Shown here: positions 3,704 through 27,666 of the stretch, piece after piece | How the letters are laid out: every line of letters starts with the position of its first letter | Numbering within the stretch: the stretch's first letter is position 1 | DNA from: Nitrospirota bacterium | GTDB taxonomy: Bacteria > Nitrospirota > Thermodesulfovibrionia > UBA6902 > JAJYJJ01 | NCBI GenBank assembly: GCA_021789595.1 | Contig: JAJYJJ010000001.1 | Location: 62,001-126,000 of the forward strand | Direction: 5' to 3' | DNA length: 64,000 bases | Notes under the pieces: generated by a model | What the model saw: only the letters and a program-made list of their open reading frames with translations | Told to the model about the DNA's origin: nothing | The model's database searches: none | Position numbers and translations under genes: made by a program

Positions 3704-4696
3704 ATGAAAAGGAATTATTACATAACAAAAAACGGCAGACTCAAGCGGAAGGATAACACTCTCTACTTGGAGTTTGAGACGGGTGAAAAGAAGGCGATCC
3801 CAGTTGAGGACGTGGAAGGGCTCTATCTTATGGGTGAAACGGACCTGAATACCAAACTCCTGAACTTCCTTTCGCAGCAGAAGATACCCGTGCACGTGTT
3901 CAACTATTATGGCTATTATTCAGGTTCCTATTATCCGAGGGAACATCTGAATTCCGGATTCCTGCTGGTAAACCAGGTGGAATGTTACAAGGACAAGGGG
4001 AAAAGGCTGGCTATCGCAAAAGAGCTGATAAACAGCGCAGCACATAATATCCTTCGCAACCTGAAGTATTATCAGAACAGAAAAGGAGGGCTTGAAACTT
4101 ACATATCAGGAATAGAAGCCAAATTGCCTGAACTCGATAAGTCATCGGGTATCCTTGAACTGATGGCATGGGAGGGACACGTAAGGGAGCGGTATTATGA
4201 CAGCTTCAACCTCATCCTCGAACTTGAGGAAGAATTCACGAAGCGGACAAAAAGGCCGCCCGACAACATGATTAACGCCCTCATATCTTTCGGTAACTCC
4301 CTTTTGTACGCAACGACGCTTGGGGAGATTTACCATACACAGCTCAATCCCACTATAAGCTTCCTGCATGAGCCTGGAAACAGGAGGTTCTCACTCAGTC
4401 TGGATATAGCGGAAGTTTTCAAGCCTGTTATTGTGGATCACGTAATCTTTAAGCTGCTGAATACGAAGATGCTTGGAGAAAGTGATTTTGAAAAAGATGT
4501 AAATTTTTGCTATCTTTCTGAGAACGGCAGAAAGGTATTTTTGAAGGAATACGATGAGCGGCTCAATACGACAATCAAGCACAGGTCGATCGGCAGAAAT
4601 GTTTCATATAGGCATCTGATTAAGCTGGAGTGTTATAAGATCGAAAAATATGTCGCGGGGATTGAAGAGTATAAGGGATTCAGGACATGGTGGTAA
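3704..4696 (+). CDS. cas1: Cas1 integrase
   Basis: A 330-residue Cas1 of the type I-B/I-A lineage. The N-terminal beta domain is followed by the catalytic helical domain with LELMAWEGHVRERYYDSF (metal-binding Glu), LNPTISFLHEPGNRRFSLSL (His) and DIAEVFKPVIVDH (Asp), the three expected metal ligands. It forms the spacer integrase with Cas2. Start ATG 3704 encodes MKRNYYITKNGRLKRKDNTL, the usual N-terminus. An inverted-repeat element separates it from cas4, and a second one from cas2, so the adaptation operon has been invaded twice without damaging a gene. Confidence 0.96.
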   Translation: MKRNYYITKNGRLKRKDNTLYLEFETGEKKAIPVEDVEGLYLMGETDLNTKLLNFLSQQKIPVHVFNYYGYYSGSYYPREHLNSGFLLVNQVECYKDKGKRLAIAKELINSAAHNILRNLKYYQNRKGGLETYISGIEAKLPELDKSSGILELMAWEGHVRERYYDSFNLILELEEEFTKRTKRPPDNMINALISFGNSLLYATTLGEIYHTQLNPTISFLHEPGNRRFSLSLDIAEVFKPVIVDHVIFKLLNTKMLGESDFEKDVNFCYLSENGRKVFLKEYDERLNTTIKHRSIGRNVSYRHLIKLECYKIEKYVAGIEEYKGFRTWW

Positions 4697-5170: not shown

Positions 5171-7054
5171 CTTTTAATCGCACCAATATGGAATTGAAAC
5201 GGATACTGGTCTGTCAATCCTAAACCTTTGTTTAACCTTTTAATCGCACCAATATGGAATTGAAACTGCGGTAAAACTTGAGCACGGCTTTGTAAAATAA
5301 ACTTTTAATCGCACCAATATGGAATTGAAACGACACAAGCAGCTTAGAAGCAGACGTGAACTTCAAGCTTTTAATCGCACCAATATGGAATTGAAACAAC
5401 TTATGTACAGGTAAAATAAAAGTAGTTCGGAATCTTTTAATCGCACCAATATGGAATTGAAACTGATTTAATGTTCCCCCTGGTGATGATATTGATATTC
5501 TTTTAATCGCACCAATATGGAATTGAAACCAGGAGGTGCGGGATGACCTACTCGCTGGATATATATCTTTTAATCGCACCAATATGGAATTGAAACTCTT
5601 TTAGAAAAGATGAAGATACGAGACAATGGGCACTTTTAATCGCACCAATATGGAATTGAAACACCGTAGCGGTCAGTAAGGTGGAAACATTTGTAGTGCT
5701 TTTAATCGCACCAATATGGAATTGAAACAAGGTGTTGATGATTTTGCGGCCTCGGATTTAAGCCACTTTTAATCGCACCAATATGGAATTGAAACGATAT
5801 TATGCTCTATCGCCCCGAACATCGGGCCGAGCTTTTAATCGCACCAATATGGAATTGAAACTTGTCCTTAAAATGCGTGTTATTTGTTCTACTAAAACTT
5901 TTAATCGCACCAATATGGAATTGAAACCGCTGTATTTAGCAAAGCCGCTTTTGAGAAGAGTGTCTTTTAATCGCACCAATATGGAATTGAAACGAATCAA
6001 AAAGCGCGGGGCGGGTAGGGATAGTACTATCTTTTAATCGCACCAATATGGAATTGAAACTATTGTTTGATGTATATTCTGTATTAGCAACTGTAACTTT
6101 TAATCGCACCAATATGGAATTGAAACTAGGTCAATCAAATGGTATTAGTGCAGGATCTATTGCTTTTAATCGCACCAATATGGAATTGAAACTCAGCAGA
6201 CGGGTCATTAACATTCATCGAGAGATGAAGCTTTTAATCGCACCAATATGGAATTGAAACATATATAGCCCCCCAGGCCAGGGTATTAGAAGTGAACTTT
6301 TAATCGCACCAATATGGAATTGAAACTATTGTTTGATGTATATTCTGTATTAGCAACTGTAACTTTTAATCGCACCAATATGGAATTGAAACATCAGAGG
6401 GTGTTTGTCGTATACCCCCTGGTGCAGGCTTTTAATCGCACCAATATGGAATTGAAACGATACATATTCTGTATTAGCAGTTGTAAGAGTATAACTTTTA
6501 ATCGCACCAATATGGAATTGAAACATGACAGAAAGGGATGGACTGATTACACTATAAGACCTTTTAATCGCACCAATATGGAATTGAAACGTAGCAACCT
6601 TTAAGGTTCTAAATCCCTTATATATAGCTTTTAATCGCACCAATATGGAATTGAAACTTTAATACCTATTCTGATCTTATCATGCATTGTATGGCTTTTA
6701 ATCGCACCAATATGGAATTGAAACGAGCGAATAAAAATCGCTCAGGCTATATAACATTATCTTTTAATCGCACCAATATGGAATTGAAACTAAGGAGTGT
6801 CCACGATGCAAATCTCGTGCTATCAGCTTTTAATCGCACCAATATGGAATTGAAACGATGTAAGCCCCTTTATAGTTATATATGAGAATTATCTTTTAAT
6901 CGCACCAATATGGAATTGAAACATCGTTAGAAGTATCAAGTATGTCAGGCTGAAATATACTTTTAATCGCACCAATATGGAATTGAAACTTACCAAAAAC
7001 AATTTCTTGTGAATCAAATTGGATCTTTTAATCGCACCAATATGGAATTGAAAC
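5171..7054 (+). CRISPR. CRISPR array, 29 repeats and 28 spacers
   Basis: The repeat is 30 bases, beginning CTTTTAATCGCACC and ending GGAATTGAAAC. I found 29 copies, all identical as far as I can read, including the last one. Spacers are 35-38 bases, mostly 36. The final eight bases ATTGAAAC fit the crRNA 5' handle of type I-A/I-B systems, so the leader-proximal, newest spacers are at the left. The spacers at 6061-6096 and 6327-6362 are identical; the spacer at 6459-6494 overlaps them in sequence by 28 bases with four differences. Spacers at 5530-5566 and 6791-6826 each look like a ribosome site followed by ATG. Confidence 0.98.
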
Positions 7055-9092: not shown

Positions 9093-10235
9093 CTATCTCA
9101 GAAAATCCTGCACCTGCTTTTTTATCTTGAGGTGATGTAGGGGGATATTCGGCACATCTTTATTCCCGGGGACGGCGAGGGCATGGATAAATCTTAGTCC
9201 CTTACACGGATTTTTCATGACATCAATTAACTGTTTCTTGCCTGCCACTTTAATTGTGTCTTTTATACCGAAACCCTTTGCCACAAGCTCAAGATCTACG
9301 CATGAGGCGGTAAGTGTAGGCTGGTCTCCTGTTGAGCCGTAGGAACCATTATCTATTGCAATAATTGTCAGATTCTCTGGCGCAAGATAGGCAGCAGTTG
9401 CAAGGCAACCAGGATTCATTAAAAGGCTGCCGTCGCCATCTATAACAATAACCTGCTTATTTGATGTAAGCGATATCCCGAGGCCGATCGGGGTTGCCAT
9501 ACCCATACTTCCGAGCATGTAAAAATTGGAAGGCTGATGTTTTATGTAAAAAAGCTCCTTTGATGGGAATCCAAGATTGCATACGACAACCTTTGAATCA
9601 AGATAAGGTGCAATAATATCCAGAATTTCATAACGGGTAAATCTCCGGGGAGATGCACGATGTATGATGCCAGATGCACGATCAGTTTTTATATCCAGCA
9701 TCCAGCATCCTGTATCCTGTATCACGACTTCTGAATCTTCCCATATTGCAGGACTGAGCAAGAACGCATGTATCTTGTTTTTCCTGTAAACATCGGGAAG
9801 TTTCGCCTCTATAACCTTAAAATCATCCTTTGTACTGATAATCGAACATGGTATGCCTGCTCCTCTAAGAACCCCTGGAAGCCTCTTGCCCATAGGCACC
9901 TGAGCTTCAATCCCTTCTTTATATACCCCCCTATGGCTTACAAAGACAGCAAGCGGCAATTTATAGAATCCAGTAAGGGACAGTAGGGCGTTTATCATAT
10001 TGCCAACACCTGAGCTCTGGACGAACATGGCAGGTCTTCTGCCCCCGAGTGCAGCACCGGCACATATGCCAACACCTTCCTCCTCTCTTGTTAAAGGGAT
10101 ATGATATAGGGGTCTATGGCCATATGCCCCTATAATTAATTCGAGGAGGTTTTTAATCTTCTCGCAGGGCAGAGAGCAGACAAAATCTATATCTCTTTTA
10201 AGAATCTCTATTAACTCTTCTTCAGGGTATGGCAC
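9093..10235 (-). CDS. comDE: Sulfopyruvate decarboxylase, fused alpha and beta chains (coenzyme M biosynthesis)
   Basis: A 380-residue thiamin-diphosphate enzyme joining a ComD-like half (about 1-170; TREEEGVGICAGAALGGRRP with the catalytic Glu, then QSSGVGNMINALLSL) to a ComE-like half (about 197-380; GSMGMATPIGLGISL, then VIVIDGDGSLLMNPG with the cofactor-binding GDG at 267-269 and AIDNGSYGSTGDQ). It converts sulfopyruvate to sulfoacetaldehyde on the way to coenzyme M. Methanosarcina-type ComDE has the same fused order. The linker (about 172-196) is encoded by repeat-like DNA (see findings). The start overlaps the end of the cysteate synthase gene by 25 bases. A phosphonopyruvate decarboxylase is the main alternative, but the partner gene argues for sulfopyruvate. 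Confidence 0.85.
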   Translation of the reverse strand: MPYPEEELIEILKRDIDFVCSLPCEKIKNLLELIIGAYGHRPLYHIPLTREEEGVGICAGAALGGRRPAMFVQSSGVGNMINALLSLTGFYKLPLAVFVSHRGVYKEGIEAQVPMGKRLPGVLRGAGIPCSIISTKDDFKVIEAKLPDVYRKNKIHAFLLSPAIWEDSEVVIQDTGCWMLDIKTDRASGIIHRASPRRFTRYEILDIIAPYLDSKVVVCNLGFPSKELFYIKHQPSNFYMLGSMGMATPIGLGISLTSNKQVIVIDGDGSLLMNPGCLATAAYLAPENLTIIAIDNGSYGSTGDQPTLTASCVDLELVAKGFGIKDTIKVAGKKQLIDVMKNPCKGLRFIHALAVPGNKDVPNIPLHHLKIKKQVQDFLR

Positions 10236-11467
10236 AGCAGAGTTTCTATCTCCTTCTCTGAAATATTTTTTGACACAACAATGGGTTTGACTTCATAAGT
10301 CATAACATCCATCTTCAGCCTCTCTTCGCCTCCTCCTGTGATGTTAAGCAATATGGTATCGTCCTTCTGAACTATTCCATCGTTAATACTATTTACAAGT
10401 GCAGCCACTGCAACACCAGCAGCAGGAACAATATCAATCCCTTCTGTCTCTTTGAACAGATCCATTGCAGAGTAGACATCTTCATTTCTGACACCGTACA
10501 TCCTGCCACCAGTATCTATGAGTGCATCATATACCCCACCCTTAACAGAATAGGCAGGATAACGGTTTGACAGGACACGCGTTGTTATTAATCCTATAAG
10601 TTCGGGCCTCAGATCTTCAAGGAAAAGTTCCCTGCTTCCCTTCTGCCATGCCTTGACCATCGGCGCAAAGGGTAGATTCTGAGCAAGGTGAAGGGCTGGC
10701 AATCTATCGCCAAATCTGCCGTCTTTCAAAAACCTCTCGGCCATCTCCCATACAGCTATTGCTCCTGTTCCACTGCCAACAGCCTGGAAATAGTGTTCGG
10801 GGAGTCTCCCCATCTTTGATACTGCTTCAAGCAATACAACGCCAAGTCCGTCTCTCTTGGCTATGTTTTTCACGCCGCCTTCAAATGGTATTTCAAGGGC
10901 TAATGATATTGTCCTTGCCACATCAATAGAATCTGAATAATCGCCGTCGGCTAATGCTATGGTAGGTATTATTGATGAGCCCTCAAGATACCACATATCT
11001 ATAAGACACATATGCGGCACTACAATGACAACCGGGAACCCTGATATAGAAGAGAGATGGGAGAATGCCCTAGCAGTATTTCCAGCAGAGGCCACAATCA
11101 GCCCATTCATGCGGTTTTCCATTGCATTCTGTAGCACAACTGCTGCCTCAAACTCCTTAAATGTGCATGTCTGAAGTGACGCTTCCATCTCTGGCCAGTA
11201 CCCATTAAATGCAATGTAAAGGTTTTCAAGGCCGAGGCGTTCAGAGATACCTCTGGATTTATAAACCACAGGGCCTGACTGATAAAATTTATGGGTATGA
11301 ACCGGCAGCCAGTTAAACCTCCAGACGCCTTCAGCCTTTGTCTCGGTAAAAAGTCTATCCTTATAGTCTGTTACAAGGAGCGCATCCTTGCAGTGGCCGC
11401 AGAAGGCACAGTGTACCTCCTTTAATTCCTTTCCACAGTTTCTGCATCTTATGCTGAAATGACTCAT
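10211..11467 (-). CDS. Cysteate synthase-like PLP enzyme (threonine synthase superfamily)
   Basis: This 418-residue PLP enzyme has an N-terminal zinc ribbon (Cys8, Cys11, Cys20, Cys23/26) and a fold II lyase core. The Schiff-base lysine is probably Lys104 in SLQTCTFKEFEAAV, where ordinary threonine synthases read SFKDRG. The phosphate loop is NITGGGEERLK near the C-terminus. Cysteate synthase of Methanosarcina (about 416 residues) makes L-cysteate from O-phosphoserine and sulfite, the first step of its coenzyme M route. The TFKExEA motif, length and overlap with the comDE gene favour cysteate synthase over threonine synthase. Sulfite supply may come from the TauE/DsrE region at 25-32 kb. Substrate assignment is by context and motif, not proven. 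Confidence 0.78.
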   Translation of the reverse strand: MSHFSIRCRNCGKELKEVHCAFCGHCKDALLVTDYKDRLFTETKAEGVWRFNWLPVHTHKFYQSGPVVYKSRGISERLGLENLYIAFNGYWPEMEASLQTCTFKEFEAAVVLQNAMENRMNGLIVASAGNTARAFSHLSSISGFPVVIVVPHMCLIDMWYLEGSSIIPTIALADGDYSDSIDVARTISLALEIPFEGGVKNIAKRDGLGVVLLEAVSKMGRLPEHYFQAVGSGTGAIAVWEMAERFLKDGRFGDRLPALHLAQNLPFAPMVKAWQKGSRELFLEDLRPELIGLITTRVLSNRYPAYSVKGGVYDALIDTGGRMYGVRNEDVYSAMDLFKETEGIDIVPAAGVAVAALVNSINDGIVQKDDTILLNITGGGEERLKMDVMTYEVKPIVVSKNISEKEIETLLCHTLKKS

Positions 11468-11476
11468 ATTACCTCC

Positions 11477-12682
11477 TCAAATCAGGCTTCCAACCAGCTC
11501 CATAATATCCACAATTCTTATCTGTTTATCATAGTCTACCATGGCCTCATTCACCTTCGAATAGCATGCAGGACAGCTTAGAATAAGCTTCTCTGCCTTC
11601 TTCTTTACAGCCTCGTCAATTGTTAATCTTCCCATAGCAATAGCATTTTCATGAAAGACCTTTCTTGCAGCGCCGCCTGCACCGCAGCACCGTGAGTTGA
11701 GGCCGTGTCTTTCAAACTCCAGTAGTTCAACGCCAGGTATACTTCTGAGGACGATCCTCGGCTCATCTATCACACCAACCCCCCTGCTTAGATAGCATGG
11801 GTCATGGTAGATAATCCTCTCCTTCAATTCTTTTTTAAACCTTAACCTGCCCTGCCTTATCGCGTCTGCAACAAACTGGGTGATGTGCCTTATCTTAAAG
11901 GGCAGTTGTTGCCCATAGAACAATGGCCAGTCCCTTGACATAATATTTACACAGCATGGGCATGAACACAAGAGTAACCTGACACCCCTTGCCCTGTATG
12001 CATTGACAAGCCTTTTGGTCAGGTCCTCAAGCATATCATGCTGGCCTGTGATGAACAGCGGAAATCCGCAGCATACCTCTTCTTCAGGGGGAAGCATTGT
12101 AAATGGCTCACCAATTGCATTAAGCACGAGCACATCACCCCTTACCATTGGCTGTGCCTCATACGCGCCTGTGCATCCAGCATAGTATGCAATATCTGAT
12201 CTTTCCGAAACCATTACGCCTTCAGGAAACCAGGGGCTATATCTCTGCTCAGGCGGTTTATCGTATATGTTCCCTGTCCTCTCTATTGCCTTTGGAAGGT
12301 TTGCCTGTGGACCAATCGGGGCAAGCCCCCTTCTTACCATCTCCTTCCTCAACATAGGCCAGAGCCTCTGTGTGAAGATGCCTACAGTGCAGTTCTGGCC
12401 ACATGCGCCGCATGTAGTGCATTCATAGACGGCCTTTGTAAAATCCTCAAGAAGTTTCTTGTCTATATCCCTCGGACCAAACAGCCTGGCCTTAAGCCCG
12501 TCGGTAGCCTTTATGAACTCCCTGAACATCCTTATCTTCTCCGGGGGTGAGATGGCAGGTCTGCCTGTCACATCCTGGACCGGACAATGCTTTAGGCATT
12601 CGCTGCATCGGGTGCATGAATCAAGCTCTATCAACTGAAGCTTTGAGAGGCAGCCTGTGAAGTCTTTTTCATCAGCCTTCAT
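11477..12682 (-). CDS. HdrD-like heterodisulfide reductase catalytic subunit
   Basis: A 401-residue iron-sulfur protein. Two [4Fe-4S] motifs come first, CTRCSECLKHCP (about 23-34) and CTTCGACGQNC (about 88-98). Two CCG domains follow: AGCTGAY, VCCGFPL and CSCPCC make the first; HDPCYLSRGVG, SRCCGAGGA and SCPACYSK the second. This is the HdrD/GlpC/DsrK architecture; in methanogens HdrD reduces the CoM-S-S-CoB disulfide using electrons from HdrE. The start overlaps the end of the membrane partner by 11 bases. With coenzyme M genes directly downstream, a thiol/disulfide substrate is plausible. DsrK-like or lactate-oxidase-type roles remain possible. Confidence 0.82.
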   Translation of the reverse strand: MKADEKDFTGCLSKLQLIELDSCTRCSECLKHCPVQDVTGRPAISPPEKIRMFREFIKATDGLKARLFGPRDIDKKLLEDFTKAVYECTTCGACGQNCTVGIFTQRLWPMLRKEMVRRGLAPIGPQANLPKAIERTGNIYDKPPEQRYSPWFPEGVMVSERSDIAYYAGCTGAYEAQPMVRGDVLVLNAIGEPFTMLPPEEEVCCGFPLFITGQHDMLEDLTKRLVNAYRARGVRLLLCSCPCCVNIMSRDWPLFYGQQLPFKIRHITQFVADAIRQGRLRFKKELKERIIYHDPCYLSRGVGVIDEPRIVLRSIPGVELLEFERHGLNSRCCGAGGAARKVFHENAIAMGRLTIDEAVKKKAEKLILSCPACYSKVNEAMVDYDKQIRIVDIMELVGSLI

Positions 12683-13487
12683 GTAATATGCCTCTAAGTT
12701 TTTCGTTATGTTTTATTGCCGCAGATGTTACTATCTGTGCAGAAAACATATGGAATTGCTTTGAGAAAGGTATATAGGCGATAAATGATAAGGCTGATGC
12801 TGCATGAGACAGCCAAACAAGCCGGTGTGCCAGGATATAAGATGAGGCGATTCCCCCAAAGACAGCCTCGAATACCCTTGCGAAAAGATACCCTACAGGA
12901 GACCAGTCCATTGATGGAGGACGAAAATATGCCAGCCTGAGCCCCTCTGTGCTGAAACCCGTAATGATTATGAGGAGCAAAAGGCAGAGTATGACAGCAT
13001 CGTCCATAGAGGAAACAATATTTTCTGATCTGAAAACATATCTCCTGCCAAGGTAAAAGATTATGCAGATTCCAAGGAGGGCTCCTGCGATGTCAAGTAT
13101 CATAGAATAAACAAGATAGGCCATGCCATTTAAAAAATTCAGACGGAGGTCATAGTCTAAAGACAATATGACTGTGCCCATAAAAAGGGTAAGGAAACTC
13201 CATATTGTAATTACGAGCACGACGCCCCTCACCCTGCTCTTTTCAAAGACCCTTTTTGCAAAAAAGCATTCCTTTGAAAAGAGACCTTTGAGGCTCATCC
13301 TGGCAAGCTCAATGCCCCTCATGCCATAGACGATGTCATCAGGATTATCCTTCCCCCTGAGCCACACCGAGAACTTCACCCAGATGCCTGAAATAAAAAG
13401 CCCGGATGCAAGGACAGCAGATGCATAAAATACTGTTCTAAAAACTCCTGGGATGTTCCAGAAGACCTCTCTGGTTACATGGGTCAT
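12672..13487 (-). CDS. HdrE/DsrM-like membrane cytochrome b subunit
   Basis: A 271-residue NarI-superfamily membrane protein with about five or six transmembrane segments. The C-terminal signature HRLVWLSHAASALSFIAY followed by PFSKQFHMF carries the histidines that ligate b-type hemes in HdrE, DsrM and NarI. It would pass electrons between the quinone pool and the HdrD-like protein on the cytoplasmic side. Coupling to hdrD (11-base overlap) matches the hdrED pair of Methanosarcina and the dsrMK pair of sulfate reducers. The N-terminal 80 residues contain a soluble loop before the cytochrome region. Confidence 0.8.
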   Translation of the reverse strand: MTHVTREVFWNIPGVFRTVFYASAVLASGLFISGIWVKFSVWLRGKDNPDDIVYGMRGIELARMSLKGLFSKECFFAKRVFEKSRVRGVVLVITIWSFLTLFMGTVILSLDYDLRLNFLNGMAYLVYSMILDIAGALLGICIIFYLGRRYVFRSENIVSSMDDAVILCLLLLIIITGFSTEGLRLAYFRPPSMDWSPVGYLFARVFEAVFGGIASSYILAHRLVWLSHAASALSFIAYIPFSKQFHMFSAQIVTSAAIKHNEKLRGILHEG

Positions 13488-13495: not shown

Positions 13496-14434
13496 TTATG
13501 TCATCATAAAAGGACTCTTCATCTGTTCATTCCTCTGCGCCGATTTCACTGTATTTTCAAGGAGCATTGCTATAGTCACAGGGCCAACACCGCCAGGCAC
13601 AGGCGTGATGAAGGATGCCTTTTCCCCAACTGATTCAAAATCTACATCGCCCACAATACTTCCATCTTCAAGTATATTAATACCTATATCCACAACCACT
13701 GCACCCTCTTTGACCATATCTGCCTTTATCAGTCCCTTTACCCCTGTTGCCGAACACAGGATGTCTGCCTGGCGTGTAAAGAAACTCAGGTCGCGGGTCT
13801 CCCTGTGGCAGACAGTAACCGTTGCCTCTTTTGCAAGGAGCATCATAGAAAGAGGCTTGCCAACAGCAAGGCTCTTTCCAACAACTACGGCATTTTTGCC
13901 TTTTATTTCCACCCCGTAAAACTCAAGAAGCCTTATAACCCCATAGGGCGTGCATGGGAGAAAACTTGAAAGCCTTGGCATAAACCCTCTGTTGTTAAGA
14001 ACCTTGAGATTGTCATGGAATATCTGAAATGTGGATTCGTCGGCAGCAAGGCGTCCAATAGAGATAGAGCCGAGCCCATCTACATCCTTTTCAGGAGAAA
14101 TAGTATTTACAACCCTTCTTGCATTTATTCTTGGTGGCAGGGGAAAGAGGATCAAAAGACCGTGTATCCGCTCATCATGGTTAACAGAATATACAACATT
14201 AAGAATCTCATTGGCGGAGGCTGTTGCAGGCAATCTGTATTCATATGCGTTTATGGCGACCTTTTTGCATGATTTTAAGGTTGCCAGAAAATATTGTTTT
14301 GAAGCCAGATTATCGCCAACAAGCACTATGGCAAGACCGACATCGATACCAAACCTTTTTAAACCTTCAACATTCTTTCTGACCTCCGCCTTGATCTCAT
14401 CGGCAAGTCTTTTACCATCCATTATGGTAGCCAT
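13496..14434 (-). CDS. folD: FolD homologue lacking the cyclohydrolase Lys and Gln
   Basis: A 312-residue member of the methylene-tetrahydrofolate dehydrogenase/cyclohydrolase family. VGDNLASKQYF, PEKDVDGLG, PCTPYGVIRLLEF, VVGKSLAVGKPLSMMLL and PGGVGPVTIAML are all conserved. However, the catalytic lysine of the YxxxK motif is Thr52 (YFLAT), and the glutamine of the VQLPLP motif is Leu96 (LILFPLP). Those two residues are needed for the cyclohydrolase and for full activity in characterised FolD enzymes, while the NADP-binding half looks normal. It may be dehydrogenase-only or act on a modified pterin. It sits between the Hdr pair and the corrinoid activator, so it plausibly serves C1 flow from the MtrH-like protein. 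Confidence 0.88.
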   Translation of the reverse strand: MATIMDGKRLADEIKAEVRKNVEGLKRFGIDVGLAIVLVGDNLASKQYFLATLKSCKKVAINAYEYRLPATASANEILNVVYSVNHDERIHGLLILFPLPPRINARRVVNTISPEKDVDGLGSISIGRLAADESTFQIFHDNLKVLNNRGFMPRLSSFLPCTPYGVIRLLEFYGVEIKGKNAVVVGKSLAVGKPLSMMLLAKEATVTVCHRETRDLSFFTRQADILCSATGVKGLIKADMVKEGAVVVDIGINILEDGSIVGDVDFESVGEKASFITPVPGGVGPVTIAMLLENTVKSAQRNEQMKSPFMMT

Positions 14435-14466: not shown

Positions 14467-14781
14467 TTATTTTGAGAATACTATACTAACATCTTTTGGA
14501 AGACACATGCCTGCCTCAACCTCAATGGCCTTTAGAATCCCTCCTGGCACAGGACAGGCAACATGTTTTAAATGTCTTGTTGCAGACCTGTACACAGGAT
14601 TGCTGAGATAGCCTGAGAATACAGCCATCATATCAAGGGTAGGGATATCTTCAAGCATTGCCTTTACCATCCTGCATTCTGTATCGAGTTCAACGGCAAA
14701 TGTCCGCTTCTCAAGTCTATTAACAGTAACTGTCACTGTATAACCGCATATGCCGGACTGAATGGTAACCTTCGTCATCAT
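14467..14781 (-). CDS. Small four-cysteine protein of a methyltransferase-cluster family
   Basis: A 104-residue soluble protein with four cysteines (in SGICGYTV, DTECRMV, HVACPVPGG and AGMCLPKD), no membrane segment and no signal. The arrangement resembles a small family (DUF6951, from memory) that recurs beside corrinoid methyltransferases and their activators; I have no function for it. It lies 19 bases downstream of the activator gene and 32 bases upstream of folD, clearly within the operon. The Cys pattern could hold a metal or an iron-sulfur cluster, perhaps to pass electrons to the corrinoid. Confidence 0.6.
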   Translation of the reverse strand: MMTKVTIQSGICGYTVTVTVNRLEKRTFAVELDTECRMVKAMLEDIPTLDMMAVFSGYLSNPVYRSATRHLKHVACPVPGGILKAIEVEAGMCLPKDVSIVFSK

Positions 14782-14800: not shown

Positions 14801-16786
14801 CTATCCTGCCTGTCCTTTTATCTCTGCAGCGTATGCTGATTTTTCAAGAAGTTTCTTTAGATTCGGGAAAGGGTCTTTCATATGAGGTATGTGCATGGCC
14901 TGCACGAACTCCTTCTGAAAATTGGGTTCAACCGCTATCTCAACGAACTCCACCCACCTGGCCTTTTCTTCAGCCTCAAGCCTCTTATCCCTGTTAAGGA
15001 GTGCTATTCTTGCACCATCGCCTGCTGCATTGCCCACAGCATAAACATTGTCTATATCGCAGTCAGGGAACATCCCCAGGGTCATGGCAGATTCCTTATC
15101 AATATAACTGCCAAATGCACCTGCAAGTATTACCTTATCAAGTTTATTAATACCCATCTTTTGCATCATCAGTTTTGCGCCTGCATACAGTGCTCCCTTT
15201 GCAAGCTGTAAGGCCCTTACATCAGCCTGGTTTATTATTATGTCTGTGCCTATGGATGTCTCATCTGCCCATGCAAGCACATACTCAGGCCTTCCATCTG
15301 AATCCCGCCTTATCCTTGGTGTATTCAATTCCATATTGAACTTGCCTGTTTTATCAATTATACCTGCCTTGTACATCTCGGCAACCGCATCAATAATCCC
15401 TGAGCCGCAGATTCCCTTGGCATCTATCTTTTCGAGGTGGGTGTGCCAGTCTGCTTTTCCTATGACCTTGTATTCAGGCTCTCTGGTCTCAGGATTTATC
15501 CGTATCTTTTCTATGGCCCCTGGTGCTGCCCTCATCCCGAACTTTATCTGGGCGCCTTCAAAGGCAGGCCCTGTTGCACAGGATGTTGAACATACCCGTT
15601 CTTTATTGCCGAGCAGAAGTTCACCGTTTGTGCCTATGTCTATTATTAAAACCTTTTCCTCCTGATTATATGGTTCCTCTGCAATGAGCACGCCAACATT
15701 ATCAGCCCCAACAAATCCTGCCTCTATGGGAAGCACATGTATGTAAGATGCGGGATTTATCTTTATGCCCATATCCCTTGACTTTATATCCAGTGCGTGC
15801 TGGACTGCCGGTATAAATGGGGAGCGGCCGATGTATTCAGGGTTAAAGCCCAGAAAGATATGATGCATTGCAGTATTAAATACAATGGTCATATCAACTA
15901 TAGCCCCGCCGCCGTCTTTTTTGCCATTGACCCTGAGGTCATGTGTGATCTTGCTTATTATCTCATTCAGCCCTTCTATAATTGTCCTCTGCATCTTCTC
16001 AAGACCATCTGGATTCATCATGGCATATGTAATCCTGGACATCACATCCTCTCCGTAGGGCACCTGTGGGTTCATCATGGACTCCGTGTTAACCACCTTG
16101 CCTGTATTGAAGTCGCATAGATAACCAACAACGGTTGTGGTTCCCACATCTACAGCAAGCCCATAGGAGGACTCGATGAAACCGTGTTCTACCTTTATAA
16201 TCTCCCTATCCATCCATATAGAGGCTGTGAGTCTCCATTGTCCTTTTCTCAGGGCATCCTGCAGCTCCTTTAGCACAAGGTAATCGATGGACAGGTTTTT
16301 CAGGCCGTATTGGGCATCAAGAATATCCTTTACCCTTTCTACATCACCCCTGGTCAGATCGTGGAGTGTTGGCGGTTGCAGCTCTATGAAGTATTTTTTC
16401 ACCGCTGGCTCAAGCTTGATGGTCAGTTCCTTGGCTGCCTTTCTGACTATCTGTTTGCCTGCCCTTGATTTTTCAGGAACAAATATCTTTACATCTCCGT
16501 GAACCTCTGCTGTGCATGCAAGCCTCATGTGATGGCCGTCTTCGGGCTTTATGAATTTTCTTTCAACCTCTGTAAAGGCACTGAGATGTGACATCTTGGA
16601 GTCCATGGAATCCTTCTCAAAAAAGCCCTCCTCAACTCTGACCTTGCATTTCCCGCATGTGCCCTTACCACCGCATATGGACTCTATATCCACACCGAGA
16701 TGCCTTGCAGCATCAAGAAGGGTTGTGCCATCCACTACCTCTCCTCTCCTGCCAGATGGCTGGAAGATTACCCTCTGTTTTATCAT
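14801..16786 (-). CDS. RACo-type ATP-dependent corrinoid-protein activator
   Basis: A 661-residue protein with an N-terminal plant-type [2Fe-2S] domain (Cys38, Cys44, Cys47 in SICGGKGTCGKC and Cys91 in LACTAEV), a middle region, and a C-terminal ASKHA ATPase domain (VDVGTTTVVGYLCDF, IDIGTNGELLLG, GICGSGIIDAVAEMY, GAFGSYIDKESA). RACo and RamA-type proteins return inactive Co(II) corrinoid to Co(I) so that methyl transfer can restart. It is preceded by a good ribosome site and lies in line with the corrinoid protein gene. The domain order matches RACo, not the archaeal RamA. Confidence 0.88.
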   Translation of the reverse strand: MIKQRVIFQPSGRRGEVVDGTTLLDAARHLGVDIESICGGKGTCGKCKVRVEEGFFEKDSMDSKMSHLSAFTEVERKFIKPEDGHHMRLACTAEVHGDVKIFVPEKSRAGKQIVRKAAKELTIKLEPAVKKYFIELQPPTLHDLTRGDVERVKDILDAQYGLKNLSIDYLVLKELQDALRKGQWRLTASIWMDREIIKVEHGFIESSYGLAVDVGTTTVVGYLCDFNTGKVVNTESMMNPQVPYGEDVMSRITYAMMNPDGLEKMQRTIIEGLNEIISKITHDLRVNGKKDGGGAIVDMTIVFNTAMHHIFLGFNPEYIGRSPFIPAVQHALDIKSRDMGIKINPASYIHVLPIEAGFVGADNVGVLIAEEPYNQEEKVLIIDIGTNGELLLGNKERVCSTSCATGPAFEGAQIKFGMRAAPGAIEKIRINPETREPEYKVIGKADWHTHLEKIDAKGICGSGIIDAVAEMYKAGIIDKTGKFNMELNTPRIRRDSDGRPEYVLAWADETSIGTDIIINQADVRALQLAKGALYAGAKLMMQKMGINKLDKVILAGAFGSYIDKESAMTLGMFPDCDIDNVYAVGNAAGDGARIALLNRDKRLEAEEKARWVEFVEIAVEPNFQKEFVQAMHIPHMKDPFPNLKKLLEKSAYAAEIKGQAG

Positions 16787-16831: not shown

Positions 16832-17509
16832 TTATGAGTTTCGAGATATTAATTGCTCCGAACTAAAAACTTCTGACTTAAAAATCTTTCGACCATAAGG
16901 GCATATATTTATACATAATCCGCAATTTGGTCTGCCGTTTACAGTCCTGCTATTTTTCTTGTAAGAGTTGCATCTATCAGGTCTGACAAGCTGGGTGAAT
17001 GGTTCATATCTCGACCAGTTTCTGCCAGTAAGTGCATTTGATGGACAGAACTCAACGCACATACTGCAGTCTCCGCATCGGCTGAATTCAATGGCTGTGC
17101 CAACCTGAAATGGTGCATCTGTTAACACTGTTGCAAGCGAGAGTCTCGGCCCATACCTATGGTTTATAAAAAGGCCATTCTTTCCGATCCAGCCAAGTCC
17201 TGCGGATGTAGCAGCTATTTTATGGGTAAAGAGGGGATAGAGTCTGGATATGAATGTGTTTTTCCACCTGTCCGAATCAGGCGGTATGCATAGATACCTG
17301 TACCCTCTCTGTTTAAGCCATCTTGCTGTCTTGCTCTCAAGCGAGGTCAATAGGTTTACAGTATCCTCATTCAGATTTCTGTTTACACATATGGCAATTG
17401 CCCTTCCAAGATGCGATATCTCTCCTTTAAGGGCATCCTTTACCTCAGCTATACCCACTAAGGTGGCCCCTGCATTGAGAAGTTCATCTCGAAGTGTTTC
17501 GACTTTCAA
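16832..17509 (-). CDS. Short QueG-like double [4Fe-4S] protein
   Basis: A 225-residue protein with an N-terminal domain resembling epoxyqueuosine reductase (LGWIGKNGLFINHRYGPRLS is the usual segment) and two ferredoxin motifs: CGDCSMCVEFCP, then CGLCINICPYG. True QueG is about 350 residues and ends in helical repeats, which are absent here. Its start overlaps the stop of the corrinoid protein gene by four bases, so they are coupled. QueG is a cobalamin reductase-like enzyme, so a role in reducing or loading the corrinoid is a fair inference. Queuosine synthesis seems unlikely from the context. Confidence 0.7.
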   Translation of the reverse strand: MKVETLRDELLNAGATLVGIAEVKDALKGEISHLGRAIAICVNRNLNEDTVNLLTSLESKTARWLKQRGYRYLCIPPDSDRWKNTFISRLYPLFTHKIAATSAGLGWIGKNGLFINHRYGPRLSLATVLTDAPFQVGTAIEFSRCGDCSMCVEFCPSNALTGRNWSRYEPFTQLVRPDRCNSYKKNSRTVNGRPNCGLCINICPYGRKIFKSEVFSSEQLISRNS

Positions 17510-18195
17510 CTTTTCCTTGCCTCTGCCTCTTCCTTGAGTTTTTTCAATGAGCTTATCATATTGATCGCATCCTTCAAGGCATTGTTTGCATCCTTGGCAT
17601 ATCCATCAGCACCCCATTTCTCAGCTATGTCTTGAGAAACAGGTGCACCGCCTATCATTATCTTTACATTAGGGTTTTTTGTCTTAAGCTCTTCTATTAC
17701 CTTCTTCATGCCGACCATTGTTGTTGTCATCATTGCAGAGAGGCATACAAGGTCAGAGTCTGTCTTCATCTGCTCTTCCACAAATTTATCAAGCGGCACA
17801 TCCCTGCCCAGGTCGTATACGGTAAAGCCAGCCACATCGAACATCATCTTCACAATGTTTTTGCCTATGTCATGAACATCGCCCTCAACCGTTCCTATGA
17901 CAACAGAACCTCTCACACCGAGATCCATCTTTTTCACATGGGGCTTGAGTATATCAAGGCCGGCATAGAGGGCATCTGCGCACATTAGTAATTCAGGGAC
18001 AAAGTACTCCTGAGCCTCGAACAGTCGACCAACCTCTTCCATGCCGCTCACAAGGCCATTAAATATGGCGTCGTTTGGATCCATCCCTATATCAAGGGCC
18101 TCTTTGGAGGCATCCTTTGCAGTATCCTCATCGTACTGTATTACTGCATTCTTTAGCCTTTCCAGTATCTCCTGTTTTTTTTCTCCCGTTACCAT
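17506..18195 (-). CDS. Corrinoid protein of a methyltransferase system (MtaC/MtbC-like)
   Basis: A 229-residue two-domain protein: an N-terminal four-helix cap (about 1-90) and a cobalamin-binding Rossmann domain with the motif EGDVHDIGKN, where His108 is the lower cobalt ligand, followed by DLGRDVP and later IMIGGAPV. It carries the methyl group on cobalt between two methyltransferases. It lies between the QueG-like gene and the MtaA-like gene in the order seen in methanol and methylamine systems. The methyl donor cannot be read from it. Confidence 0.92.
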   Translation of the reverse strand: MVTGEKKQEILERLKNAVIQYDEDTAKDASKEALDIGMDPNDAIFNGLVSGMEEVGRLFEAQEYFVPELLMCADALYAGLDILKPHVKKMDLGVRGSVVIGTVEGDVHDIGKNIVKMMFDVAGFTVYDLGRDVPLDKFVEEQMKTDSDLVCLSAMMTTTMVGMKKVIEELKTKNPNVKIMIGGAPVSQDIAEKWGADGYAKDANNALKDAINMISSLKKLKEEAEARKS

Positions 18196-18199: not shown

Positions 18200-19249
18200 C
18201 TACCTCCTGTATTTTTTTACTTCTTCCATCATTACATTTATGTTTTCTGGCGGCACAGTCGGCCAAATATCGCATCCAGGCCATACAGCACTGACACCAT
18301 CGTCTATACACTTTCTTATAGTCTCCCTGACCTTTTCAGTTGTACCTGCCACAAGGACATTGTATGGGTCGTAATTTCCAAATATCAGGGCATCCTTGCC
18401 GAGCCTCTTTCTTGTTTCGGCAACATCGTTCTTCTGGTCAACACTTATTGCCTTTACATTAGTCTCCATCATAAAAGAGACAATGTCGTTTGTCTTTCCA
18501 CATATATGGATTACGCTCGGCACAGTCAGCTTATCAAAGATCTTTTTAAGATAAGGCTGTATCAGATTCTTAAAGACCCGCGGGCTTAGAACATCCGAGG
18601 TTGCACCCATCTCCCTCACTGTTATATAATCTACCCCTGCTTTTTCATACTGTTTTGCCACTGTAACAATGGCATCAGCAAGTAGGTCGAGGAGCTTACC
18701 TACCTTGTCAGGTTTTTTAAAGGAAAGTTTCAAGAGGTCGTTGAGTTCCATTATCTGTCCTGCAAGGGTGAATGGGCCAAGGACATAGGAACCGATGGCG
18801 ACCTCACCGCCTATATCCCTTTTCATTAATCTGATCGCCTCGCATATAAGCGGTATCCTGCCCCTTTCTGATATGTTCACAGGAATAGAGATGTCCATCT
18901 CATCCTCGTTATGGATCAACTTCTTTTTTATTGTCGGATACAGTATGTCCTCTAAGTGGGCATAGACATTTATCTCACAGCCAAGTGCCTCTGCCTCTAC
19001 ACAGAGGTCAAAAGGGACAACTCCGCATTCAAAGCCGAACAGCTTGTATGTGGATGCTGCTGCCTCTGACATCATTTTTGCGTCAGAATGAAGGGCGGCG
19101 AATTTGTATCCATATTTCCTCAGTCCTTCTGTTGTAACATTCCCCATGCCGCTGAAGCATGGAGGTCTGTCAATAGCTTCACCTGCAAAGAGCTGCATTA
19201 CCCGTTGTTTTGCTGATAATGTTGTTGTCAACGCTTTCTCCTTGTGCAT
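18200..19249 (-). CDS. MtaA/MtbA-like zinc methyltransferase (UroD superfamily), copy 1
   Basis: A 349-residue UroD-fold protein. Zinc ligands are visible at His248 and Cys250 (VIHICGKTND) and Cys326 (WPGCDIWPTVPP), the same spacing as His237, Cys239 and Cys316 of MtaA. MtaA moves methyl from the corrinoid protein to coenzyme M; other members move methyl from substrates to cobalt. It lies four bases before the corrinoid protein gene. With coenzyme M genes in the same operon, a CoM methyltransferase is the leading reading, but a substrate:corrinoid role is not excluded. Ordinary uroporphyrinogen decarboxylase is excluded by the zinc motif. Confidence 0.82.
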   Translation of the reverse strand: MHKEKALTTTLSAKQRVMQLFAGEAIDRPPCFSGMGNVTTEGLRKYGYKFAALHSDAKMMSEAAASTYKLFGFECGVVPFDLCVEAEALGCEINVYAHLEDILYPTIKKKLIHNEDEMDISIPVNISERGRIPLICEAIRLMKRDIGGEVAIGSYVLGPFTLAGQIMELNDLLKLSFKKPDKVGKLLDLLADAIVTVAKQYEKAGVDYITVREMGATSDVLSPRVFKNLIQPYLKKIFDKLTVPSVIHICGKTNDIVSFMMETNVKAISVDQKNDVAETRKRLGKDALIFGNYDPYNVLVAGTTEKVRETIRKCIDDGVSAVWPGCDIWPTVPPENINVMMEEVKKYRR

Positions 19250-19264: not shown

Positions 19265-20212
19265 TTATTTCCTTGCTTCTCCAGCCATTAATTTCTCTAT
19301 AAAATCAGGGAAGAACCTTCTTATTGGAAGGTTGTCTTTCTCTGGTATATGTTTTGTCTCGCCGTATACAATCGTAGAAAGCAGTATATGTGCTGTGGCA
19401 ACGGCAGGGAATATACGCGGGGCAGTAACAATCGGTCCATAGAAGTTAAAATCACTCCAGAGCACAGAGGCCATGCCCTGGGCTACAGCATCCATTGCCT
19501 TAAAGCCGTCAGGCCCCCATAAATCTTTCGAGGCCTTCCACATATGAGTTCCGTTTGAATATGCACCACCGCATGGAAGCCCAAACTTATCCTTTATCAA
19601 CCTGTTGGCTATTAAGGAAAATGATGTAGCAGGCAGGTTCATTACAGAGGTATCTACAATAACGGTATCGAAGCTGTCTGCACCCTGCGATAGGATATTA
19701 TCGAGGGACTTTACTCGCCCCATTGGAGATTGGTCTTTATCATCAAAGGCCTGCACGACCACATGCTTTATCCCAAGGTCCTTCAGTCTATTTATCTGTC
19801 CTTTAATGTCCTTATCCCATGGCGTGATACTGTTATAGAGGAACTTGTCCTGGATCCCTAATTTAGCAATATGCTCAGTTGCCTGTGCCCTTTTCTCGGC
19901 AACCCACATATCTATGCCAAATGGCATGTTTGTTGTCTCAAGATAAAAATCTATATAAACCTCAGCCTCTTCAGGCGTATTTGCCACCATTGCCACCATT
20001 GCAGGTATGCCTGTAGAGTTTGAGAGCTCCTCCTGTTTGTTTATAAGTTCTTTTGCCTTTTGCCTGTCGAACCTGCCTTTTCTATCTTCAAGTATCCTGT
20101 CCTTGTTGTGAAACATAGAGGCTATAAGCAGGGGTGGATTGTCTCCAGGTTGACCGCCTATTTTGATTCCATTTATATCAAAGACCTTTTGTGCCCTTGT
20201 AAATCGGAACAT
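19265..20212 (-). CDS. MtrH-like methyl-pterin:corrinoid methyltransferase
   Basis: A 315-residue protein closely following MtrH: FRFTRAQKVFDINGIKIGGQ at the N-terminus, FDRQKAKELINKQEELSNST, then GIDMWVAEKR, FLYNSITPWD and a VDTSVMNLPATSF loop. MtrH is the subunit of the methanogen Mtr complex that transfers methyl between tetrahydromethanopterin and cobamide; bacterial relatives act on methyl-tetrahydrofolate. No other Mtr subunit is present, so it probably works as a soluble partner of the corrinoid protein encoded two genes away. Together they link the MtaA-like proteins to the folate pool and to the FolD homologue. Confidence 0.87.
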   Translation of the reverse strand: MFRFTRAQKVFDINGIKIGGQPGDNPPLLIASMFHNKDRILEDRKGRFDRQKAKELINKQEELSNSTGIPAMVAMVANTPEEAEVYIDFYLETTNMPFGIDMWVAEKRAQATEHIAKLGIQDKFLYNSITPWDKDIKGQINRLKDLGIKHVVVQAFDDKDQSPMGRVKSLDNILSQGADSFDTVIVDTSVMNLPATSFSLIANRLIKDKFGLPCGGAYSNGTHMWKASKDLWGPDGFKAMDAVAQGMASVLWSDFNFYGPIVTAPRIFPAVATAHILLSTIVYGETKHIPEKDNLPIRRFFPDFIEKLMAGEARK

Positions 20213-20283: not shown

Positions 20284-20730
20284 CTAATAAACTCCGTGAT
20301 CAAACTTCGGCTGTGGCAGATATTCCCACGACTCGCCCTTTCGGTATTTGGCCTCTATGTCGAGGCATTTCAGTGCATACTCAAAGGCGTAAGGAATTCC
20401 TGGCCCGCCAGGAACAAAACCTGCGCCGATCATGCCGACTGCCGCCGCCTCAAATATCTCAGAAGTTGTAGCTCCTGCCTTAATAGCTGGAATCACATGA
20501 ATTATGCACCGCGGAGAACAGTATGAGACACCAATGGCTGTAAACATGAGCTCTTTTATCTTCTTTGAAAGTGCCCCGTCACCGAAAATGGTTGCGTAGA
20601 AATCTGCAAAGGTCTTTCCAGGATCTGGTGTTACAGTGTTTATTATCTTGAACATCCTTGGGACAAACCCCATAACATCTTCCATATACTTGTTGGCCTC
20701 TTCAGCCGTCATCTTCTTTTCCCCAGCCAT
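20284..20730 (-). CDS. Carboxymuconolactone decarboxylase-like (AhpD superfamily) protein
   Basis: A 148-residue CMD-fold protein. The usual CxxCxxxH active site is instead CSPRCIIH (Cys71, Cys75, His78), so one cysteine is shifted while Cys71 and His78 keep their spacing. AhpD-type members are thiol-disulfide enzymes. It stands between the MtrH-like gene and the second MtaA-like gene in the same orientation, so it belongs to the operon; a disulfide or peroxide role linked to coenzyme M thiol would be attractive but is speculation. A GGAGGG site precedes the ATG. Confidence 0.75.
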   Translation of the reverse strand: MAGEKKMTAEEANKYMEDVMGFVPRMFKIINTVTPDPGKTFADFYATIFGDGALSKKIKELMFTAIGVSYCSPRCIIHVIPAIKAGATTSEIFEAAAVGMIGAGFVPGGPGIPYAFEYALKCLDIEAKYRKGESWEYLPQPKFDHGVY

Positions 20731-20856: not shown

Positions 20857-21885
20857 TTAGAGTTTCCATTCCCTGGCAACCTGGATAAACTTCTGTATGT
20901 TCTCATAAGGCACTGTCGGTGGTATGTCACAGCCAGGCATGAGCACGAAGCCGCCGTCGGTGCCAGCGGTCTGGATCACTGATTTACAGGCATCCTCTAC
21001 TTCCTGAACTGTACCCTGAAGCATTATCTTCACAGGGTCAACATTCCCTGCAAAACACATCTTTCCATGTAGTATCTCTTTTGCCTTTGCGATATCGGTT
21101 TTATGGTCAAGACTTATACAGCTTGCACCTGTAAGAGGGAACAGATCCAGCCTGTCTGTTGTATTGCCGCAGATATGGACAAGGGTATGAACGCCCTTTG
21201 ACTTCGCCCAATCAGTAAACTTCTTAAGGTATGGCAGGGCAAATCTTTCGAACTGTTTTTTTGATATCAGATCGCCTGATGCAGTCGGGTCAGCAAGGCT
21301 TATAACCTCAAGGGTTCCATCAGCCACCAAAGGCTCATACAGATGGATCAATAGATCTGTGACAAGATTAACTATCTTCTCTACAAAAGCAGGTTTTTTA
21401 AAGGTAGCCTTCATCATTGCTTCCTCTCCAACCAGTCTTGCACCGAGGGTAAAAGGCCCCCACGCAGTCATTGTTACCACATACTCGTCACCGATCTTTG
21501 ATCTGGTAAGCCTGAGGGCATGTTTGACAGTATTGATAACCTCATCCCTGTCTATCCCTGATATGTCCAGTTTCTGCAGGTCTTCCTCTGCAGCAATCAA
21601 TGCTTCTTCAAGGTCAGGGGCGCCTATCTCCCTGAATTTGATCCTGCCTCCAAGTGCCGATGCATGAAAGTTGTTGTAGCCTGAACCGGCATACACAATA
21701 TCGCAGAGCAACCTGCCTGACATATGTGTAAGCATCTCAGACATCTTTAAGGCATCGAGGGATAGGTCCTTAAATGTGGTTCCGAAATTATGGATACTCC
21801 ACATCCCACCGCCAAAGATGGTCGCTGGCACCCTTTCTGGTTTACCGCCATCAAATGCTTTTAGGATTACCTCTCTTGGTTTCAT
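20857..21885 (-). CDS. MtaA-like zinc methyltransferase (UroD superfamily), copy 2
   Basis: A 342-residue UroD-fold protein with His237 and Cys239 (LVHICGNTTD) and Cys319 (LMPGCDIPPTVP), almost exactly the MtaA zinc numbering. It is a clear paralogue of the protein at 18200-19249 but not a recent duplicate; the two differ along most of their length. One of the pair may take methyl from a substrate and the other deliver it to coenzyme M, as in MtsA- or CmuA-type systems. It is the second gene of the transcript from the sigma-54 promoter at 22259-22274. Confidence 0.82.
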   Translation of the reverse strand: MKPREVILKAFDGGKPERVPATIFGGGMWSIHNFGTTFKDLSLDALKMSEMLTHMSGRLLCDIVYAGSGYNNFHASALGGRIKFREIGAPDLEEALIAAEEDLQKLDISGIDRDEVINTVKHALRLTRSKIGDEYVVTMTAWGPFTLGARLVGEEAMMKATFKKPAFVEKIVNLVTDLLIHLYEPLVADGTLEVISLADPTASGDLISKKQFERFALPYLKKFTDWAKSKGVHTLVHICGNTTDRLDLFPLTGASCISLDHKTDIAKAKEILHGKMCFAGNVDPVKIMLQGTVQEVEDACKSVIQTAGTDGGFVLMPGCDIPPTVPYENIQKFIQVAREWKL

Positions 21886-22703: not shown

Positions 22704-23231
22704 ATGGCAAAGATTAATGGGCTTGACACTGAGAAATTAATGGCGGTGGTCGAAACTGTCAAACAGAACTGGGAGGTGGGAAAGACTGTATGGAAGGCAT
22801 CAACAACATGGAAGGGTGGTTTCAAGGTCGAGACCTGTTCAAGGGACTTTACCTTAACGGCAGATGAGCCTGAGATGTTGTGCGGAACAAACACTGCAGC
22901 CAACCCTGTCGAAATGGTTCTTCAGGCATATGGTGCATGTCTGACAATTGGCTATGCAATGAATGCTGCTGTAATGGGGATAAAGATTGATGACATCAAG
23001 ATAGACCTTGAGGGTGAAATAGACCTCCCTGGGTTCCTCGGACTTGAGCCGCCAGAAAAACTCCATATGGATAAGCTGCCTGGATATAAAAGCGTAAAAG
23101 CAGTGGTGAAGATCAAGGCTGATGCAGATGCCAAGACGCTTAAGAAGCTTCACGAACATGTAGTAAGAACATCTCCTGTAGGTCTAACACTGTCAAGGCC
23201 TGTAAGGGTCGAAACCAAGTTGGAGGTTTAG
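22704..23231 (+). CDS. OsmC-family protein with Ser in place of the resolving Cys
   Basis: A 175-residue OsmC/Ohr-fold protein. The peroxidatic position is Cys79 in AYGACLTIGY, but the second site, usually CPVSNTL, reads SPVGLTL (Ser157), so a normal two-Cys hydroperoxidase cycle is not possible. Its N-terminal 40 residues, containing DTEKLMAVVETVKQNWEVGK, are longer than in typical OsmC. It has its own sigma-54 promoter and faces the activator gene, so it is probably part of the same regulon. Role may be in sulfane or thiol transfer instead of peroxide removal; this is inference. Confidence 0.78.
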   Translation: MAKINGLDTEKLMAVVETVKQNWEVGKTVWKASTTWKGGFKVETCSRDFTLTADEPEMLCGTNTAANPVEMVLQAYGACLTIGYAMNAAVMGIKIDDIKIDLEGEIDLPGFLGLEPPEKLHMDKLPGYKSVKAVVKIKADADAKTLKKLHEHVVRTSPVGLTLSRPVRVETKLEV

Positions 23232-26694: not shown

Positions 26695-26713
26695 TATGAG
26701 AGAAGGAGGGAAA

Positions 26714-27208
26714 ATGAAGATCAATATTAAAAGAATCTCCGGGATGTTGGCTTTCATTGTTATGATTGTAGCAGCTTCTGGGGTCGCTATGGCCAATGAT
26801 TTTAAAGGTGTAAAGGAAGTTAAGGCTGTATGGGATATCACTACTGGTGATGAAAATGTATTCGTAGATCGTGTTCAGTTGATCAAAGAGACAGCAGAGG
26901 GTCTGAAGAAACGCGGAATCAAGGTGGATTTTGTGCTGGTTATTCATGGTCCAGCAGCAAAGTTCGTAACAAAATCCCTGGCAGGCACAAAGTTTGAGAA
27001 GGATAAACTGGCTAAGCTTGATCAGATTCAATCAACGATGCAGAATTTAAGGAATGGGGGTGCCAAGATCGAAGTATGTTCCATAGCGATGAGTCGGGGC
27101 AAGATAGGCAGAGAAAATGTGCAACCCTTTGCAGTTATCGAGGACAATGTCTTTGAAAATACCATTGTTTTGGAAAACAAAGGGTATGCTTATATGCCGG
27201 TTCATTAG
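26714..27208 (+). CDS. Exported DsrE-like protein
   Basis: A 164-residue protein with a clear Sec signal peptide (KRISGMLAFIVMIVAASGVAMA, cut after AMA) and a DsrE/YchN-type domain: VWDITTGDENVFVDRVQLIK, VLVIHGPAAKFV, then KIEVCSIAMSRG with the single conserved cysteine and a GYAYMPVH tail. DsrE-like proteins carry sulfane sulfur on that cysteine. Start ATG 26714 is set by GGAGGG a few bases upstream; longer frames from 26660 would overlap the previous gene and hide the signal peptide. It is a close paralogue of the next gene, which lacks the signal. Confidence 0.8.
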   Translation: MKINIKRISGMLAFIVMIVAASGVAMANDFKGVKEVKAVWDITTGDENVFVDRVQLIKETAEGLKKRGIKVDFVLVIHGPAAKFVTKSLAGTKFEKDKLAKLDQIQSTMQNLRNGGAKIEVCSIAMSRGKIGRENVQPFAVIEDNVFENTIVLENKGYAYMPVH

Positions 27209-27240
27209 AAATGCAAAAATCCCCCATAAGGAGGAGATTG

Positions 27241-27654: not shown

Positions 27655-27666
27655 GATAACCGTGCA

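Follow-up and report, generated by a model that had tools for sequence, protein, structure and literature searches.

An archaeal-type HdrDE-like gene pair tied to coenzyme M and methyltransferase genes in Nitrospirota points to an undescribed bacterial use of coenzyme M

Introduction

Coenzyme M (CoM) is known from archaeal methane and alkane metabolism and from alkene metabolism in a few bacteria; in the titles and abstracts of open-licence papers, CoM and Nitrospirota are mentioned together only incidentally. What is an HdrDE-like gene pair doing beside CoM genes in a bacterium of this phylum? The question is raised by a locus in the 64,000-nucleotide stretch of Nitrospirota DNA analysed here (the window), which an earlier note had taken as a sign of a new quinone-linked thiol/disulfide reaction. 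The original observation is confirmed and is larger than first noted: the pair belongs to a module in which early CoM synthesis is coupled to methyltransferases specific for CoM and for folate and to an HdrDE-like complex; no mcrA was found where it was tested for. An archaeal-type HdrDE-like complex encoded together with CoM and methyltransferase genes, but without the methane enzyme, points to an undescribed bacterial use of CoM. The HdrDE-like and CoM-linked character of the pair is borne out, and the overall interpretation in the note is partly supported.

The locus and its operon

The HdrD-like and HdrE-like reading frames overlap by 11 nt on the minus strand, as had been described, and the pair stands directly before the CoM genes, with cysteate synthase (CysS) followed by the fused ComD-ComE (Table 1). 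The latter scores 184 bits with the alpha-subunit model (cut-off 148) and 220.0 with the beta-subunit model, slightly below the 221.5 required. Cysteate synthase together with ComDE marks type 2 (phosphoserine) CoM biosynthesis, and the window encodes both; it differs from the known pathway in the last enzyme, as the CoM synthase ComF/MMP16 (PF01837) was absent from 43 of 43 genomes tested. If CoM synthesis is confirmed, a CoM synthase other than ComF is left to find.

MtaA1 matches PDB 4ay7 with an E-value of 8e-47. As in the MtaA/MtrH systems of methanogens and acetogens, there are methyltransferases specific for CoM and for tetrahydrofolate (THF) or H4MPT, a corrinoid protein and its reductive activator, but here enzymes of both kinds are encoded around a single corrinoid gene, and the bacterium also has early CoM synthesis and HdrDE. 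A gene for a sigma-54-type regulator lies, like the OsmC-like gene, farther upstream of the operon.

Table 1. Features of the CoM and methyltransferase locus in the window
Feature	Position	Strand	Basis or remark
Fused sulfopyruvate decarboxylase ComD-ComE	9093..10235	-	TIGR03845 above cut-off; TIGR03846 just below
Cysteate synthase (CysS; CoM biosynthesis, phosphoserine route)	10211..11467	-	TIGR03844 478.9 bits, cut-off 324.9
HdrD-like subunit, 401 aa	11477..12682	-	Two 4Fe-4S motifs and two complete CCG sites
HdrE/NarI-fold anchor, 271 aa, five TM helices	12672..13487	-	Nitrate_red_gam above Pfam cut-off; AlphaFold
FolD (methylene-THF dehydrogenase/cyclohydrolase)	13496..14434	-	In operon of a minority of relatives
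DUF6951 protein, conserved operon member	14467..14781	-	
RACo/AcsV-like reductive activator of corrinoid protein	14801..16786	-	
QueG-like Fe-S protein, conserved operon member	16832..17509	-	
Methyltransferase cognate corrinoid protein (CorC)	17506..18195	-	TIGR02370 above cut-off
MtaA1, methylcobamide:CoM methyltransferase family	18200..19249	-	PRK06252 above cut-off; Zn-type HIC...GC motif
MtrH-family methyl-tetrahydrofolate/H4MPT:corrinoid methyltransferase	19265..20212	-	NF002142 above cut-off
CMD/AhpD-like protein	20284..20730	-	
MtaA2, second UroD/MtaA-fold methyltransferase	20857..21885	-	Co-occurs with cysteate synthase in 41/42
OsmC-like protein	22704..23231	+	58% homologue two genes from HdrD in Ca. 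Pyrohabitans

Elsewhere in the window, at 25495-31802, two sets of ABC transporters of nitrate/sulfonate/taurine type are accompanied by a DsrE-like gene (26660-27208) and by a TauE/SafE-like protein. Genes resembling TauA are also found near CysS-ComDE in several relatives and in archaea, which suggests that sulfonate uptake is tied to CoM. On the other side of the operon, a direct-repeat array (5232-6643; translated repeat FQFHIGAIK / FNRTNMELK) beside a Cas1-like gene (3704-4696) is probably a CRISPR locus.

The HdrD-like subunit

The domain organisation claimed for HdrD was borne out: a 4Fe-4S dicluster domain and two CCG domains, scoring above the Pfam cut-off, are joined in one chain of about 400 residues. 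The cysteines of the 4Fe-4S motifs are C23, C26, C29 and C33, and C88, C91, C94 and C98; both CCG sites are complete (C170-C204C205-C241-C244 and C296-C332C333-C370-C373). All ten cysteines for two non-cubane [4Fe-4S] clusters, including the supernumerary one, are present and invariant in the clade. The pair shares these ten cysteines, the domain order of HdrD and the adjacency of the two genes with HdrDE of Methanosarcinales. However, LdhH- and GlcF-like proteins likewise carry both full CCG motifs; the motif is therefore by itself no proof of thiol chemistry, and we dropped it as such.

One position sets the protein apart. Where archaeal HdrD has a small residue, Gly, in C-x-G-C beside the reactive irons, and EtfD and DsrK have His, the HdrD-like clade has an invariant Cys243, extra to the ten CCG cysteines and part of an SCPCC motif. 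By analogy with His583 of EtfD, Cys243 could cap the reactive iron.

The best NCBIfam match is TfrB, but with 185.5 bits, covering only model positions 130-484, where at least 385 are needed; a thiol:fumarate reductase, for which an SdhB-like N-terminus is also expected, was rejected. Matches to LdhH, DsrK and GlpC are weak and all far below the cut-offs of these models. Could the protein nevertheless belong, as an ordinary subunit, to a lactate or glycerol-3-phosphate dehydrogenase or to DsrMK? The common CCG architecture and those weak matches are all in line with it. On the other hand, neither a dehydrogenase gene nor a Dsr gene is found in the operon. The N-terminal CCG cysteines are missing from DsrK, which also has a degenerate C-terminal CxxC, and in E. 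coli GlpC, which has GlpA/GlpB as neighbours, only the C-terminal site is complete, whereas the HdrD-like protein has both sites and no such neighbours. Trees also separate those families, although the approximately unbiased (AU) test for GlpC/LdhH gave p 0.13. We regard this possibility as hardly credible. By its diagnostic residues the pair is not GlpC, DsrMK or EtfD; it is archaeal-HdrDE-like, as had been proposed, and strictly tied to CoM genes.

The earlier note had asked for a phylogeny. In a tree without DsrK and EtfD, the clade groups with HdrD of Methanosarcinales (support 98/95); once DsrK and EtfD were added, the deep branching was no longer resolved. AU tests gave p values of 0.447 for placement with HdrD, 0.127 with GlpC/LdhH and 0.145 with EtfD, so that none of the alternatives was rejected. 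A grouping with archaeal HdrD is thus favoured, but placement with GlpC/LdhH or EtfD is not rejected by these tests. The union with HdrD of Hydrothermarchaeota is supported in both trees.

The membrane anchor

The AlphaFold model of the HdrE-like protein has five long transmembrane helices, and its best matches are the transmembrane domain of EtfD (Z 13.7) and NarI (Z 12). HdrE profiles found no match among PDB sequences, but the fold search did find relatives. A NarI-like five-helix anchor thus adjoins HdrD, and it shares with HdrE of Methanosarcinales the five-helix HdrE/NarI architecture and the IAYIPFSK...HM signature. Two types of anchor occur. Most relatives have a short one (about 228 aa) with four conserved histidines as in NarI; the window has the longer type, which keeps two of the four NarI/HdrE-type haem ligands, His228 and His246, in helix V and just after it. 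Helix II (residues 85-113) is without His, so that bis-His ligation of haem b from helices II and V is not seen in this type. In EtfD, the single haem is ligated by His78 and His241 (PMC13083937). Since the helix-II His is absent, a normal bis-His haem is unlikely in the window protein, judging from its sequence, and "cytochrome b", as the gene had been called, should not be assumed: the HdrE/NarI-type anchor stands, but haem binding by this copy is doubtful.

Distribution across Nitrospirota

The conserved operon reads (MetF)-MtaA2-CMD-MtrH-MtaA1-corrinoid protein-QueG-like-RACo-DUF6951-(FolD)-HdrE-HdrD-CysS-ComDE, and the DUF6951 protein is among its most constant members. HdrD of relatives is 62-81% identical to that of the window; more divergent operon copies occur in G201 (39%) and in the genome of locus L103. 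A true cysteate synthase was found in 42 of 295 sampled genomes of the phylum. The phylum, Nitrospirota, was assigned by way of named relatives, since a 16S search of the window's own genome detected no rRNA. Among 80 Nitrospirota genomes, HdrD was present in all 42 with CysS and in two of 38 without it, both of these exceptions being fragmented assemblies; the corresponding figures for MtaA2 are 41/42 and 2/38. The adjacency HdrD-CysS-ComDE recurs in nearly all of about 60 Nitrospirota loci examined, and together with the perfect co-occurrence of HdrD and CysS this shows that the neighbourhood of HdrDE and CoM genes is not due to chance. Going by the family labels of the sample, nine families hold both CysS-positive and CysS-negative genomes; the module is therefore not one inherited block.

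No mcrA (PF02249) was detected in 21 Nitrospirota genomes or in the Ca. Pyrohabitans genome, whereas the Methanohalophilus control was positive. Without an alpha subunit of a methyl/alkyl-CoM reductase (MCR), MCR-dependent CoM use is rejected where tested.

Is the complex part of CoM biosynthesis? HdrDE could supply electrons, perhaps together with a DsrE-type sulfur carrier, for the final conversion of sulfoacetaldehyde to CoM and so replace ComF/MMP16. The absence of PF01837 would fit, as would the tie of HdrD to CysS, which it immediately precedes and often overlaps in relatives and accompanies in every CysS-positive genome. But menaquinol has little reducing power for such a reaction, HdrD and CysS are not neighbours in the archaea that were examined, and two genomes of family f17, G225 and G196, have CysS-ComDE elsewhere and keep HdrED directly behind RACo and DUF6951, with the methyltransferases. 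We consider such a role distinctly unlikely. The two split genomes argue that HdrED belongs with methyl transfer and weaken CoM biosynthesis as its sole home; its functional context would thus be CoM-dependent methyl transfer and not CoM biosynthesis alone.

Some genomes of family f14 have, within the methyltransferase operon, a distant extra HdrE-HdrD-like pair of about 30% identity (L068 10587-12640, L073 10455-12565, L192 1222-3275), with both CCG sites complete where checked.

Archaeal relatives

For the archaeal comparison, genomes reached via their cysteate synthase loci were searched with an HdrD profile. It gave 377-409 bits with HdrD of Methanolobus, Methanococcoides, Methanohalophilus and Methanothrix, each with HdrE adjacent, 411-458 bits with HdrD of Hydrothermarchaeota, and about 75-175 bits with DsrK-, LdhH- and GlcF-like proteins. 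In Ca. Pyrohabitans (L227 7763-12336), HdrD stands with CMD, MtaA2, DsrE-like and OsmC genes, and MtaA1, the corrinoid protein and RACo are close by; a relative (L228) also has MtrH. This HdrD shares clade (support 97/94), SCPCC motif and the neighbours MtaA2, CMD and OsmC with the Nitrospirota protein. It differs in identity (about 40%), in having no HdrE-like gene adjacent, and in that the CoM biosynthesis genes, which Hydrothermarchaeota with the module do carry, are at another locus. What becomes of methyl-CoM in Hydrothermarchaeota was left open by Carr et al. 2019 (PMC6775978).

Comparison with EtfD

The structure model of the HdrD-like protein (pLDDT 86) aligns with EtfD along 381 residues (Z 30) and with HdrB at Z 22; for both subunits mycobacterial EtfD (PDB 9ojn), itself menaquinone-linked, is the closest solved fold. 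The complex might hence be a relay of the EtfD kind, in which HdrD would take electrons from a flavoprotein of methyl oxidation, for example MetF, and pass them via HdrE to menaquinone, with no thiol chemistry. This is the strongest rival explanation because of the fold, of Cys243 and of MetF and FolD: in several relatives MetF immediately precedes MtaA2, with both genes on one strand, FolD lies in the window operon, and Cys243 occupies the position of His583 which, together with Thr539, makes the clusters of EtfD non-catalytic (PMC13083937). However, EtfD has a further diagnostic change, CC to CT, with Thr539 at the second cysteine of the pair, and the HdrD-like protein does not show it, C204-C205 being intact. 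EtfD is one fused polypeptide, the Nitrospirota pair two overlapping genes. The core operon has no gene for ETF or a flavoprotein; a second, operon-type MetF was found in about half of the genomes tested, HdrD in all, and the strict tie to CoM genes would be left unexplained. We hold a mere relay to be unlikely.

A possible mechanism

From the gene content, the fold, the cluster ligands, the NarI/HdrE-like anchor and the all-or-none occurrence with CoM genes and methyltransferases, all read from the sequences, we infer a thiol activity, its partner and its direction. The reading that we prefer, with a probability of roughly 40%, is that an HdrDE-type complex serves a CoM-dependent, MCR-free methyl-transfer module and oxidises CoM-SH and a second thiol into menaquinone. 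MtrH, the corrinoid protein and MtaA1 would interconvert methyl-THF and methyl-CoM, and MetF and FolD would connect the methyl group with folate metabolism. At a non-cubane site, HdrD may join CoM-SH oxidatively to a second thiol, or to another CoM, in a disulfide, and the two electrons would travel by way of the cubane clusters and then HdrE to menaquinone. In the reverse direction, the complex would keep CoM reduced. This mechanism is supported by the all-or-none occurrence of HdrD, MtaA2 and CysS, by the retention of HdrED with the methyltransferases and by the module of Hydrothermarchaeota, and further by the invariant CCG cysteines, the HdrD profile scores and the fold.

The quinone link suggested earlier is plausible since futalosine menaquinone genes were found in all 21 Nitrospirota genomes tested; in Methanosarcinales, the partner of HdrDE is methanophenazine. 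The reduction of a disulfide by menaquinol, however, which the earlier note had in mind, is probably the wrong direction. Menaquinone, at about -80 mV (PMC9024614), has a higher potential than the heterodisulfide, for which PMC9012536 leads to about -130 mV, and this favours thiol oxidation into menaquinone; the HdrDE of Methanoperedens has been modelled in just this way, oxidising CoM-SH/CoB-SH into menaquinone (PMC9024614).

Beyond the bacterial host without mcrA and the gene order HdrE-HdrD beside CoM methyltransferases, the pair differs from HdrDE of Methanosarcinales in Cys243 and in the anchor of the window. Both features, Cys243 instead of Gly and an HdrE without helix-II haem ligands, would speak against a thiol oxidase, as would the lack of HdrE beside HdrD in Hydrothermarchaeota. 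If the preferred reading is confirmed, bacteria would have a CoM-dependent C1 pathway and a new quinone-linked CoM redox enzyme. It is tempting to go further and to propose, for Nitrospirota and Hydrothermarchaeota alike, a second kind of CoM metabolism, beyond that of methanogens and ANME: an MCR-free pathway between methyl-CoM and methyl-tetrahydrofolate (or H4MPT) in which CoM would be cycled, together with a new partner thiol, by a menaquinone-linked HdrDE variant. We find this extended version rather doubtful; if true, a novel CoM heterodisulfide would be a respiratory electron carrier in bacteria.

Links to sulfur metabolism

In two genomes, G113 (L188 8309-14877) and G279 (L189 4557-10456), HdrE-HdrD occurs a second time, with about 75% identity to HdrD of the operon. 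The neighbouring genes encode a Pyr_redox_2/SQR-like oxidoreductase, an ArsR regulator, a DsrE-like protein and an MMPL transporter. A stop codon interrupts this second HdrD in G113. Such neighbours bring to mind the oxidation or trafficking of sulfane sulfur, with the complex acting in sHdr-like manner on a persulfide bound to CoM or DsrE. Besides the second copies, a DsrE-like gene adjoins HdrD in Pyrohabitans, and in the window an OsmC-like gene is nearby and a DsrE-like gene lies at 26660. But no sHdr partner proteins were seen in the operon, and the main HdrED copies sit with methyltransferases. We judge a function of this kind to be very unlikely.

Genes resembling cysteate synthase were also found in Bacteroidota, without ComDE nearby (L119, L124, L128, L132 and others); they may serve sulfonolipid synthesis and not that of CoM.
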